The notes beneath the pieces are model-generated. The model was not told the DNA's origin and searched no databases. It saw only the letters and a list, made by a program, of their open reading frames with translations. DNA of 40,242 nucleotides. It comes from Bacteroidales bacterium. GTDB taxonomy: Bacteria; Bacteroidota; Bacteroidia; Bacteroidales; F082. A program made the position numbers and the translations under genes. Of the stretch, positions 25,572-37,181 are shown one piece after another; positions within the stretch are counted from its first letter, which is position 1, and each line of letters begins with the position of its first letter. The stretch spans positions 1 to 40,242 of the forward strand of contig JAFZXP010000071.1 of the NCBI GenBank assembly GCA_017616735.1, given 5' to 3'.

Positions 25572-25651
25572 GACTTCAAACTATGCAAAGCCTCACTTCA
25601 GGGTGAATCCTTACGGCTTCACATTCGTGATGCCTTGCATAGTTTTCCGTC
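25572..25651. repeat. Hairpin element, type A copy 2
   Basis: An 80-base element from GACTTC to GTC. Outer stem AAACTATGCAA with TTGCATAGTTT; inner hairpins TCAC-TTCAGG-GTGA and TCAC-ATTC-GTGA. It starts exactly 184 bases before the type B copy at 25756. Confidence 0.9.
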
Positions 25652-25755
25652 TTCATAATTTCAATACTTTTAACATTTACACTTTTAAACTCTTCCACTT
25701 AAAACTTTTTCAACTACTCTAAACACTACACTCTAAACTTTAAACTTTCATTATC

Positions 25756-25835
25756 GACTTCAAACTATGCAAAAAGCCGCAGGCTAATTATTTCCGCTCA
25801 CGCAATGCCTGCTATTTTTCGCATAGTTTTCCGTC
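25756..25835. repeat. Hairpin element, type B copy 1
   Basis: An 80-base element with the same 15-base ends as type A but a different 50-base core. The core has an inner stem GCAGGC/GCCTGC around a 22-base loop, below A-rich and T-rich strands that also pair. One outer-stem position is mispaired (A opposite C). Confidence 0.9.
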
Positions 25836-25850
25836 TTTAGAACTATTAAC

Positions 25851-25885
25851 TTTCAACTTTTAACTTTCAACTTTCAACTTTCAAC
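25851..25885 (-). repeat. Heptad array overlapping the 3' end of ligA
   Basis: Read on the minus strand: TTGAAAG-type units three times, a TTAAAAG-type unit and another TTGAAAG-type unit. The ligA stop TGA (25874-25876) is cut from one of these units, and the last residues of LigA (Val-Glu-Ser) are encoded by the repeat. Confidence 0.85.
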
Positions 25886-27943
25886 TTTAATCAGTTGTAT
25901 AAACTCTTCTTCACTTAATATCTTAACTCCCAATGCTTCAGCTTTCTTCCGCTTTTCCGGTCCCATTTTGTCGCCGGCGACCACAAAGTCGGTTTTCGAC
26001 GAGATGGAACTTGAGTTCTTGCCACCCAAATCTTCAATTTTTTGCTTTATTCCGTCGCGCGAGAAGTTGGCGAACACACCGCTTACGACTATTGTCTTGC
26101 CTGTTAGCAACTGATTTTCAGTTGCAATTTTCTTCTCTTGCGAGAACTGCAGTCCGAAAGCTTTCAAACGGTTGATAATCGCGATGTTGCGCTGGTCGTC
26201 GAAGAATCGGCGGATGCTCAAGGCGATGGTTTCGCCAACGGTGTTAATCTCTTGCAGTTCTTCCAACGAGGCGTTGATGATGTTGTCGATGCTGCCCATC
26301 TTATTGGCTATTACCTTAGCCGTAGTTTCGCCGACTTCGCGGATTCCCAAGGCATAAAGCACTCTGGCAAATGGCACCTCGCGCGATCTTATCAACGAAT
26401 TCAAAATATTGTTGACGGTCTTTTCCTTAAACGAAACCTTTCTCGTAACCGTTTCCGGGAAGAGGCTGGATTCATCTAAAAAAGTTTCTGTTTTTTCCAG
26501 CCCGTAAAGCTGGTCGTAAGTCAAATCGTAGAGGTCGGCGTAGTTATTAATAAGGTGGTTGTCGAATATCACTTCGACTTTTCCTTCGCCTAAACTCTCA
26601 ATGTTCATTGCCTTGCGGCTGATGAAATGCTCAATTCTTCCTTTTATTTGAGGCGGACAGCCCATGCTGTTGGGGCAGTACCAAGCGGCTTCGCCTTCTT
26701 TCTGCACCAAGGCGGCTCCGCATTCAGGACATTTTGTGATAAACTGCACTTCACGACTGTCGTTTTTACGTTTCTCGAGATCGATGCCGACGATTTTGGG
26801 GATGATTTCGCCGCCTTTTTCCACTTTCACAACATCGTCGTAGTGCAAATCCAACTGACGGATAAAGTCGGCATTGTTCAAAGTGGCGCGTTTCACTGTG
26901 GTTCCTGCCAAAAGCACTGGCTCGAGGTTGGCGACAGGCGTTATCGTTCCGTGTCGGCCCACCTGGAAGTCGATGCTCAGCAGTTTGGTGCTTACCTGTT
27001 CCGCTTTAAACTTATATGCAATTGCCCAACGTGGCGACTTTGCTGTCATTCCAAGCTCCTCGCGTTGTGCGAAACTGTTCACTTTTATTACTATTCCGTC
27101 AATGTCGAACGGCAGGTTCTTTCTTTGAACATCCCAATAGTTGATAAAATCCTGAATCTCGTCGATGTTACGGCACACTTTCATGTGCTGCGATATGTTG
27201 AATCCCCATTCTTTTGCTGCCATAAGACTTTGATAATGAGTTTGATACGGCAGGTTATCCATCATCATGTAGTAGCAGTAGTTGTCCAAGCGACGGCTTG
27301 CTGCTTCTTTCGAGTCCTGCAGCTTGATGGTTCCAGCGGTGGCGTTACGTGGGTTCGCAAACAGTGGCAGTCCAAGCTCATCACGCTCGGCGTTAATCTT
27401 ATTGAAACTGTCGTGAGGCATGATGATTTCGCCGCGCATCTCCAAGAAATCGGGGAAGTCGCCATGCAGTTTCAGCGGCACTGAATGTATGGTCTTGATG
27501 TTTGCCGTTACCTCGTCGCCCTGTGTTCCGTCGCCTCGGGTGACTGCGCGTACCAGCACACCTTTTTCGTATGTCAGACTGATTGAAACGCCGTCGAATT
27601 TCAGCTCGCACACAAATTCCACTGGCTCTTCGATGGTTTTTTCTATGCGCTGGATAAACTCTATAATCTCGTCTCGATTATACGAATTTGCCAGCGAAAG
27701 CATTGGGTATCTGTGTTTTACGAGCGGAAACTCCTTGGTTATATCGCCGCCGACGCGTTGCGTCGGCGAGCTCGGCAACGCCAACTCCGGGAATTCTTTC
27801 TCAAGTGCAATCAGCTCGTTCATCAGCATGTCGAAATCATAGTCGCTGATGCTCGGCTGAGCCAAAACATAATACTTATAGTTGTGACTGTCAATCGTTT
27901 CGCTCAGTTCCGCAATCCGTTTTCTCGCCTCGTCAGTGGTCAT
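25874..27943 (-). CDS. ligA: NAD-dependent DNA ligase
   Basis: Essential ligase sealing nicks with NAD+. Domain order is complete: Ia domain with [17 protein letters not shown], adenylation domain with Lys115 in [24 protein letters not shown] and [17 protein letters not shown] fold with [16 protein letters not shown], a four-cysteine zinc finger at about 410-435 (CPECG...CPNSMGC), helix-hairpin-helix repeats ([16 protein letters not shown]) and a C-terminal BRCT domain (about 605-685). The length of 689 residues is slightly above the usual 665-675. It follows the membrane-protein gene by six bases on the minus strand, so it is probably the third gene of that operon. Its C-terminal tail is encoded by the heptad array. 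Confidence 0.97.
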
Positions 27944-27949
27944 AGTGGT

Positions 27950-28954
27950 CTACAAATAAGCAAATGAAAAAATTATCATGGCAGTGTTGAGCAACGCAAA
28001 CAGTATGTAGCACGACAGCACCAACCATTTGTTTTTGGTCCAGAAAGCTGAATTTTTATAAAACTCTTTCCATCCGACATATCCTGCAATGATGTATGTG
28101 GGTATTGCCATCAGCAGAATATCAAAATCGTAGGTGAACAATGAACAGAGTATTATAATCAGCGTTGGGATCACCAATAGTATGTATTTGCGAAACACTC
28201 TGAAAAATCCGAATAACAGCAGCAGTGACATTGGCGGTACCATCACAAGCAGCAGGAAGAATTCTGCCCACATCGGGAAGAAAGTTTCGAACATGGGTTC
28301 GTTGAATAACGCTGTCATCGCTACGAAAGGCTTGTGGAACACAATCAAATCGACAACCGTCTGGGTTAAACCTACAGCCACAAGGTAGCCTATCAGCGTC
28401 ATCAGAGCGCCTTTCCAGTTTTTGAGAATTAGGAGCGTCAGCAAGATACCTATATAATATATGAGACTAAGGTAGCATACCGCGAAGCCCAGTCCGAGAA
28501 CAAATCCCGCGATGATGAAAGTGGTGCGGTGAAATTTTTCTGTTTCGTCGTTATCAAGTAAATGATGCTGTTTCAAAACAAGCAGGGTGCCATAAAGCAA
28601 AAAGGGTAACACCACAACCGACGGTATCGAATGCACGCTTGCATAAGGCATGCACCATAACAAAGCGCCAAATGTGGCAATCTCCAAAGCTGTCGTCTTG
28701 TCGGCGATAATCTTAGTGATTCTGTATGATAAAGTGATGATTAACAATGAGAATGCTCCAAATATCAGCCTTGCGATATAAACAACCCATGGATTTATCA
28801 TCCAAGTTTCGGGTATATGATAATAATTGAATTCTGTTGAGGCGGTGATGGAGCCGTCTGTGAATATCAAAGCTAATAATCTTACTATGACAGCCAGCGA
28901 CAATATGTACAGCAGCGGATGCTTCAAGCTGAAAAAAAACAGTTTCTCTTTCAT
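27950..28954 (-). CDS. Multi-pass membrane protein, possibly GT-C type glycosyltransferase
   Basis: A 334-residue protein with about nine hydrophobic segments. I chose the start at 28954 (MKEKLFFFSLKHPLL) because it lies one base after the stop of the upstream lipoprotein gene; a longer frame to 29137 runs antiphase through that gene. The layout, a first membrane helix, a polar loop with TEFNYYHIPETW and then alternating helices, recalls GT-C mannosyl- or dolichol-phosphate-sugar transferases, but I do not see a firm catalytic motif, so the function is a guess. It is translationally linked to the lipoprotein upstream and to ligA downstream. Confidence 0.75.
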   Translation of the reverse strand: MKEKLFFFSLKHPLLYILSLAVIVRLLALIFTDGSITASTEFNYYHIPETWMINPWVVYIARLIFGAFSLLIITLSYRITKIIADKTTALEIATFGALLWCMPYASVHSIPSVVVLPFLLYGTLLVLKQHHLLDNDETEKFHRTTFIIAGFVLGLGFAVCYLSLIYYIGILLTLLILKNWKGALMTLIGYLVAVGLTQTVVDLIVFHKPFVAMTALFNEPMFETFFPMWAEFFLLLVMVPPMSLLLLFGFFRVFRKYILLVIPTLIIILCSLFTYDFDILLMAIPTYIIAGYVGWKEFYKNSAFWTKNKWLVLSCYILFALLNTAMIIFSFAYL

Positions 28955-28955
28955 A

Positions 28956-36748: not shown

Positions 36749-36769
36749 AAACTCTGCACTTTATCATAC

Positions 36770-36849
36770 GACTCCAAACTATGCAAAGCCTCACTTCAGG
36801 GTGAATCCTTGCGGCTTCACATTCGTGATGCCTTGCATAGTTTTTCGTC
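36770..36849. repeat. Hairpin element, type A copy 3
   Basis: An 80-base type A element with outer stem AAACTATGCAA/TTGCATAGTTT and the two inner TCAC/GTGA hairpins. It begins exactly 184 bases before the next type B copy, the same spacing as at 25572 and 25756. Confidence 0.9.
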
Positions 36850-36953
36850 TTTAAAACATCAATACTTTTAACATTTACACTATTAAACTCTTCAGCTTTA
36901 AACTCGTTCAACTACTCTAAACTCTACACTCTAAACTTTAAACATTCTCTAAT

Positions 36954-37033
36954 GACTTCAAACTATGCGAAAAGCCGCAGGCTAATTATTTCAGCTAACG
37001 CAATGCCTGCTATTTTTCGCATAGTTTTCCGTC
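36954..37033. repeat. Hairpin element, type B copy 2
   Basis: An 80-base type B element with inner stem GCAGGC/GCCTGC. The outer stem position mispaired in the copy at 25756 is a G-C pair here. Loop bases differ slightly from that copy. Confidence 0.9.
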
Positions 37034-37050
37034 TTTAGAACTTCAATACT

Positions 37051-37085
37051 TTAAACTTTAAACTTTAAACTTTAAACTTTCAACT
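37051..37085 (-). repeat. Heptad array inside repeat tail
   Basis: Five exact 7-base units: TTAAACT four times then TTCAACT on the plus strand (TTTAAAG and TTGAAAG class on the minus strand). It separates the B copy from the following A copy and is the most homogeneous array here, suggesting recent slippage. Confidence 0.82.
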
Positions 37086-37101
37086 TATAACTATTATCAT
37101 T

Positions 37102-37181
37102 GACTTCAAACTATGCAAAGCCTCACTTCAGGGTGAATCCTTGCGGCTTCACATTCGTGATGCCTTGCATAGTTTTCCGTC
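37102..37181. repeat. Hairpin element, type A copy 4
   Basis: An 80-base type A element, nearly identical to copy 3. Its tail runs through degenerate heptads to the QmcA stop codon. Confidence 0.9.

Follow-up and report, generated by a model that had tools for sequence, protein, structure and literature searches.

Doublets of repetitive extragenic palindromic (REP) sequences that form a hairpin, the REPINs, were reportedly described by Bertels and Rainey in 2011. In the passages of one report that deal with their architecture, REPINs have constant ends and a length-constrained, hairpin-forming middle, and they occur in tandem clusters that include the flanks (PMC3116915). Here we describe a family of hairpin elements found in a 40,242-nucleotide stretch of DNA from a Bacteroidales bacterium. 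The whole stretch, referred to as the window, is contig 40 of a metagenome-assembled genome (MAG) of 2.08 Mb in 78 contigs, which is 80.5% complete and is called the host genome (G000); the genomes of relatives carry other G numbers, and individual loci carry L numbers. Two types of element, A and B, occupy the window, and a third, X, was found in the same genus. The elements share with REPINs two conserved inverted ends of ~16 nt and a length-constrained, hairpin-forming spacer. They differ from REPINs in that a gene for the Y1 or REP-associated tyrosine transposase (RAYT), which usually has REPINs beside it, was not found in the host genome or in 7 of the 9 other A/B carriers (two have one), that the host clusters are strictly head-to-tail and polar to transcription, that genus-wide conservation is higher for the inner collar and motif than for the ends, and that the apical modules are discrete and interchangeable.

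The GTAG and CGTC classes of REP (Di Nocera 2013) also invite comparison. In the portions of that study relevant here, they lie mostly behind unidirectional and convergent genes, <20 bp from the 3' end, are 20-40 bp long, have a stem 5-13 bp in length, and bear an unpaired tag at one end; CGTC REPs have stems of 8-9 bp, loops of 4-5 nt and a CCA-like tail, lack a dedicated transposase, and form dimers mainly in opposite orientation, head-to-tail ones being negligible (PMC3733652). As far as those portions go, the present elements resemble them in lying near 3' ends behind unidirectional and convergent genes, and the ends in the window happen to read ...CCGTC; they differ in being ~80 nt long, head-to-tail, and paired over 23 or more positions. 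Membership in the CGTC class was rejected, as the GTC is paired with GAC and so leaves no unpaired tag, the hairpin is ~80 nt, the tag is absent from most relatives, and the dimer rule is contradicted by all 23 multi-copy clusters, which are head-to-tail. The GTAG class was likewise rejected, there being no GTAG tag in A or B; in some X copies GTAG occurs within the stem, not at the end but a few bases short of it. The modularity of BOX elements lies in repeated box units, not in exchange of tips. In an excerpt on BOX, RUP and SPRITE of pneumococcus, these are small interspersed repeats with extensive secondary structure, lineage-restricted, and likely to act on co-transcribed genes (PMC3049150). 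Their likeness to A, B and X, to the extent of that excerpt, is one of description only, namely that of small, structured, interspersed and lineage-restricted repeats. Within the Bacteroidales, Porphyromonas gingivalis carries a miniature inverted-repeat transposable element (MITE) that is said to be named BrickBuilt. Part of the report on it describes a minisatellite within this MITE, and the likeness, again by description only, is that of a miniature element in the same order (PMC4596501). The open-access literature yielded no description that we recognized as the A/B/X family, which is no proof of absence.

REPIN architecture, REP-like location and signals at the level of the transcript together lead us to read A, B and X as a REPIN-like family of gene-end RNA hairpins, an account that we consider probable, with some reserve. 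The six copies in the window lie at 5411..5491 (type A, 81 nt), 25572..25651 (A), 25756..25835 (B), 36770..36849 (A), 36954..37033 (B) and 37102..37181 (A), the last five being 80 nt each, and all are on the minus strand, which is the transcript strand. An earlier note on this DNA had placed them at these positions and between pairs of minus-strand genes, and both statements hold for every copy. The first copy has a TsaD-like gene on its stop side and an HD-domain gene on the other; the B copy at 25756 lies 38 nt past the stop codon of an NAD-dependent DNA ligase-like gene, and the A copy at 37102 is 96 nt past that of a Band_7-like gene. With up to 3 mismatches, the left end of the element was matched 14 times in the window against 1.21 expected, a number reached in 0 of 100 shuffles. 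Small variations occur among the window copies: GACTCC replaces GACTTC in two of them, and TTTCGTC is found at 36835-36849.

The elements are repeated throughout the host genome. The pattern AACTATGC-N(30-60)-GCATAGTT was matched 71 times, compared with 0 for the reversed-pattern control, and a recount by coordinates gave 72 complete copies (40 A and 32 B) in 41 intergenic clusters on 26 contigs; the 72nd has one changed base in its left end and so falls outside the exact-end pattern. Covariance models detected further full-length copies with divergent ends, for example in C68, C43 and C74. Also observed was a truncated element in C22, with its left end at 32344-32358 (L010), joined directly to an apparent coding sequence. 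The clusters comprise 18 single, 15 double and 8 triple sets; none of the 41 is of mixed orientation, and the 23 multi-copy ones are those already mentioned as head-to-tail. The fixed length of 80 bases claimed earlier is approximate: lengths are nearly constant at 79-82 nt, with 46 of the 72 copies at 80 nt, 19 at 81, 6 at 82 and 1 at 79. The constant 15-base ends claimed with it are nearly invariant in the host genome and hold in a few sister species, whereas elsewhere in the genus similar cores stand on other ends that are still paired. Since the heptad-rich spacers between copies are also repeated among clusters, the repeated unit exceeds 80 nt. Copies with the same core within one cluster have ends significantly more alike than chance (0 of 2000 permutations), which fits local tandem duplication. 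The counts of end likeness, fold strand, slot grouping and gene context are based on 71 copies in 40 clusters, leaving out the copy at C28:22011 between the genes yicC and nadD, which is identical in sequence to another host copy.

Gene context of the host clusters was assigned with a rough caller of open reading frames. Among the 40 clusters placed, 31 were sense and 1 antisense between co-directional genes, 3 were convergent, 3 divergent, and 2 had one flank missing; the 41st, at yicC-nadD, is sense. Thus, 32 of 33 clusters between co-directional genes are sense, and a ratio of 32 to 1 has a two-sided probability of ~8e-9. The element of the cluster closest to the stop codon lay at a median distance of 54 nt from it, at <=15 nt in 10 of 35 cases and at <=100 nt in 32 of 35. 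For E. coli, part of a recent paper mentions, from earlier work, that REPs <=15 nt from a stop codon stall ribosomes (PMC12306157). The 55 X sites in relatives, where many of the A/B-type and X sites are orthologues of each other, comprised 26 sense, 11 antisense, 11 convergent, 3 divergent and 4 incomplete cases; 40 of the 55 were <=15 nt from the 3' end of a gene, and several convergent gaps were filled almost exactly.

On the transcript strand the element reads 5'-GAC-GGA-AAACTATGC-core-GCATAGTTT-GRA-GTC-3', with small variations, and folds into an outer helix, a 3x3 internal loop and a long inner helix, with 23 or more pairs in all. Folding z-scores ranged from -3.5 to -7.2 over 12 strands, and from -5.0 to -7.2 for the transcript strand in six examples. 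Core A, which the earlier note had drawn as two TCAC/GTGA hairpins side by side, instead continues the same long hairpin as a nested helix, because its inner helix covaries: the variants GTGAG/CTCAC, GTAAG/CTTAC and GTGAA/TTCAC were all found, and at the two best covarying inner pairs both sides had changed in 7 and 12 of 39 copies. In core B the stem runs on via AAAAA/TTTTT to GCAGGC/GCCTGC. Overall, both sides had changed at 7 of 23 pairs in type A and, with pairing kept, at 22 of 31 pairs in type X (48 sequences), and each result was equalled in 0 of 500 shuffles, these shuffle counts not being probabilities; the outer stem was the most strongly covarying part of X. In 34 of 39 A copies and 30 of 32 B copies, the transcript strand gave the better fold of the two strands; so did the corresponding strand in 45 of the 50 distinct X sequences, and the transcript strand in 15 of 18 A/B-type sites, mostly from relatives.

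The sense polarity, the strand bias in folding and the covariation suggest that the elements act in the transcript. The converse proposal, that these are protein-binding or chromosome-organizing palindromes at the level of DNA, to which RNA is irrelevant, can draw on their near-palindromic nature on both strands and on REP/BIME (bacterial interspersed mosaic element) repeats, which serve as binding sites according to part of a published account (PMC2817692). It is difficult to reconcile with the 32 to 1 sense polarity in the host genome and with the better folding of the transcript strand in most copies, and we regard it as quite improbable.

The elements are not confined to the host genome. 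Exact inner ends were matched 1-3 times each in 7 of the 59 same-genus genomes first examined, and one of these matches, L054 in G035, carries another core; an exact-end match in another family (G079) is in coding sequence and looks like chance. Covariance models of A (R1) and B (R2), run over 99 genus genomes including the host, had matches in 11 and 19 genomes, respectively, at E<=0.01, and the weaker R2 matches revealed X. The R1/R2 and X genome scans applied stricter filters and did not score every candidate in a genome, so that the copy numbers given for relatives are minimum values. In the X consensus, a covarying basal stem is followed by TGCAAAAAATCAGGCCTTGCGG, then by one of several kinds of apical hairpin, and last by CCAGACTGATTTTTGCA. 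Common to A, B and X are the covarying basal stem and a collar of the TGCAAAAA...TTTTTGCA type, the apical module being what differs; collar and inner motif are conserved across the genus, and the ends are not. A model of X trained with no host copy recognized both B elements of the window (44.5 and 40.3 bits) and 3 of its 4 A elements (26-27 bits) on the minus strand and, with scores as high as 47.5 bits, A/B elements of sister species; therefore, A, B and X constitute one family with different apical modules. In a set of 393 genomes from the order, which included five of this genus, the X model at E<=0.001 had no match outside the genus, matching only the host and two same-genus genomes. The B-core pattern, searched in 84,980 species genomes from which records near the window's own may be excluded, was present in 11 contigs of eight Bacteroidales MAGs, whose sources, where stated, are water buffalo or yak gut; the relatives probably inhabit the ruminant gut. 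One B pattern had 0 matches in viral contigs, and 36754-37197 as query had 0 among phages and plasmids. Just downstream of X at L106, L108, L110, L224 and L230, we also observed a shared start, gttagcatttt and variants, which at L106 and L110 (and at L108 on the other strand) runs into a promoter-like block, aggaattgaca...taattttgca.

With regard to the nature of the family, the earlier note had offered two options, a structured RNA family or a mobile element moved by an outside transposase. The former agrees with the folding scores and the covariation, and no described family in Rfam corresponds to it: the whole window gave nothing at the curated gathering score, nine sister loci gave no match at E<=1, and a 601-base slice at E<=5 retrieved only microRNA models of three families, far below their gathering scores, which were taken as chance. 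The latter agrees with the dispersal (72 copies, copy-number differences between species, slots both empty and filled), though no Y1 gene was found in the incomplete host genome. Each option is thus borne out in part. Specifically, PF01797 (Y1_Tnp/RAYT) had 0 matches in the host genome, other transposase classes not having been examined. This Pfam family is present in 70 of the 99 genus genomes; it is absent from 8 of the 10 clear A/B carriers (G000, G015, G041, G032, G137, G035, G046 and G005), of which G015 and G137 are 99% and G041 98% complete; the other two, G026 and G011, have one match each. Among genomes with only X or only degenerate B-like elements, G017, G039, G049 and G114 have none, and G043, G052, G106, G112, G127 and G130 have one or two. 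As most A/B carriers do without PF01797, a resident RAYT is not needed for carriage.

These data bear on the explanation that ranks next after the REPIN-like gene-end RNA hairpin, and that we find doubtful: a purely selfish REPIN or MITE that depends on a transposase acting in trans and recognizing the 15-nt ends (GACTYCAAACTATGC), its position and polarity reflecting tolerated insertion and targeting of single-stranded DNA. In its favor are the 72 copies in one species versus few in its sisters (whose counts are lower bounds), tandem head-to-tail clusters that include flanks, as the cited part of the REPIN report describes (PMC3116915), nearly identical inverted ends on A, B and a core-less form, the existence of slots both filled and empty, and the Y1 gene of the two carriers just named. 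The core-less form, of 37 nt, was observed at L094:1501-1537 in G041. The selfish explanation is opposed by the eight Y1-free A/B carriers, three of them 98-99% complete, by covariation deep inside the hairpin, and by genus-wide conservation of the collar and inner motif rather than of the ends. As to the target-site duplication that would mark a DDE-type MITE, none that was consistent was seen by eye in the flanks of 70 listed copies, the flanks themselves being repetitive.

Orthologous positions, or slots, were defined by grouping copies with at least one flank of similar DNA, excluding one group that merged unrelated loci via repetitive flanks. The most informative slot lies between genes labeled by Pfam as YicC and cytidylyltransferase-like, the second of which we take to be nadD. 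It holds A in G000 and G015 and B in G032, G041 and G137, and the ends of the G015 element differ from those of the B carriers at 1-2 of 26 positions. Among 24 close species (nadD identity >=77%; G035 and G127, with no nadD match, were not counted), 22 have a hairpin here, of about ten kinds by eye, with z<=-2 in all of them and <=-3 in 19. The two without a hairpin, G116 and G118, rule out that one is obligatory at this junction; together with 5 of 6 less similar genomes (all but G100), they make up all 7 hairpin-less genomes resolved, and in each the genes are separated by a gap of 0-4 nt or overlap. Elsewhere, at the superoxide-dismutase slot, the host has B-B, G046 has A in inverted orientation, and G041 has the core-less form; the Band_7/tRNA_edit slot of the window holds A-B-A in the host, and in G041 an A with different but paired ends. 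Three pairs of X loci, L231/L246, L235/L112 and L107/L247, have the same or nearly the same stem and a differing apical hairpin.

It is to be noted that many unrelated heptad palindromes fill the same slots in sister species. A palindrome of this kind was observed in the window at 141-220, a perfect inverted repeat of heptads of 35 bp with a 10-nt loop, just behind the gene at 221-2293, and similar ones occupy yicC-nadD in sister species. Other intergenic palindromes of unrelated sequence lie at 18331-18452 (z -6.5) and 17645-17694 (z -3.0). The abundance of heptad palindromes could suggest ordinary drift, in which template switching makes and perfects gene-end palindromes that neither move nor function. 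Recurrence of the A/B/X module sequence at dozens of unrelated slots in many species is, however, not given by local template switching alone, and we hold drift to be very improbable as the explanation of this family.

The position behind stop codons, the closely filled convergent gaps, and the A- and T-tracts that flank a G+C-richer helix in B and X would also suit bidirectional Rho-independent terminators, in which the A-tract, apical hairpin and T-tract form the terminator and the outer stem its extension. The window does contain a textbook palindrome of bidirectional terminator type at 34860-34901 (AAAAGTCAGGGGCTTGGG/CCCAAGCCCCTGACTTTTT), in a 50-nt gap between convergent genes (z of the gap -7.7). 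Nonetheless, a terminator scan of 36600-37400 gave no site at the three elements there (3 of the six in the window), and in the host the A copies have a short T-tract and some B copies an interrupted one. Moreover, the outer stem lies past the T-tract and would be missing from a terminated transcript, yet it covaries most in X, and the yicC-nadD elements end 10-12 nt ahead of the next start codon. On balance, we judge the terminator explanation improbable.

According to the REPIN-like gene-end RNA hairpin reading, A, B and X would be hairpins of ~70-82 nt behind stop codons, and the message of the upstream gene would include them, either at its tail or between cistrons. Their plan would have three parts, namely a basal stem, a collar of A-tract and T-tract, and an apical module, with stem and module sequences free to change while pairing is kept. 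They might work like REPs and REPINs, tolerated or useful at gene ends, where such a hairpin can shield the upstream message on its 3' side, or else reduce read-through and the coupling of the next gene. Many slots would have received copies. A resident copy may then be partly overwritten by another genomic copy, giving rise to new combinations of stem and tip, with the shared collar serving as a bridge for gene conversion or template switching; probably, tips are swapped by gene conversion.

Several observations weigh against this reading. Sense polarity is weaker in relatives than in the host: the 18 A/B-type sites (two of them extra host copies) include 9 sense and 4 antisense cases, and some X carriers have antisense copies at several slots. 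The wobble count in the 18 sites does not favor the transcript strand (17 versus 24). Gene-end hairpins are not obligatory, as two convergent gene pairs of the window are just 3 nt apart, and in 5 relatives at 94-97% identity the genes that border the window's TsaD slot are separated by 2-3 nt. Clean retention of the ends with exchange of A and B cores was found at one slot only; in most other pairs with both flanks orthologous and different cores, the ends differ too, by 5-13 edits over 26 positions. Lastly, the likeness of the ends in A/B pairs within one cluster did not significantly exceed chance (224 of 2000 permutations, 71 copies), so that the idea of ends following the cluster while cores swap inside it was rejected.

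The elements of the window are accompanied by heptad-rich spacers, for which no strand is assigned. The one at 5492..5611 reaches the TsaD-like gene; 25652..25755 (104 nt) separates A from B, and 36850..36953 (104 nt) and 37034..37101 (68 nt) lie within the A-B-A cluster. Inside the first, at 5542..5561, is a small palindrome, AGACGGTCGACCGACCGTCT, which has no assigned strand and recurs in the spacers of several other A/B clusters; its inner part has GAC at its start and GTC at its end, like the elements. Separately, the host genome has another Band_7 gene at C51:8323-9288, which shares 97% identity with window 37278-38246 and may reflect a strain mixture in the MAG.

A broader proposition, which we put forward tentatively as possible rather than probable, is that gene ends in this clade are hairpin slots, at which the presence of a strong transcribed hairpin would be kept and its sequence would not. 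Such slots would be refilled by the dispersed hairpin families of each lineage, including a new REPIN-like one that often lacks a RAYT and whose tip is exchanged on a resident stem. If this were true, the hairpin would be a portable insulator or 3' guard that uncouples neighboring genes, and yicC-nadD would offer a series of naturally occurring replicates. REPINs are explained by the RAYT transposase, and an abundant, structured relative mostly without Y1 raises the question of what copies such repeats. Exchangeable tips, sense polarity in the host genome and refilled slots likewise raise the question of whether selection on the transcript keeps them. With about ten kinds of hairpin and two empty close relatives, the yicC-nadD junction makes the role of hairpin presence, as opposed to hairpin sequence, directly testable.

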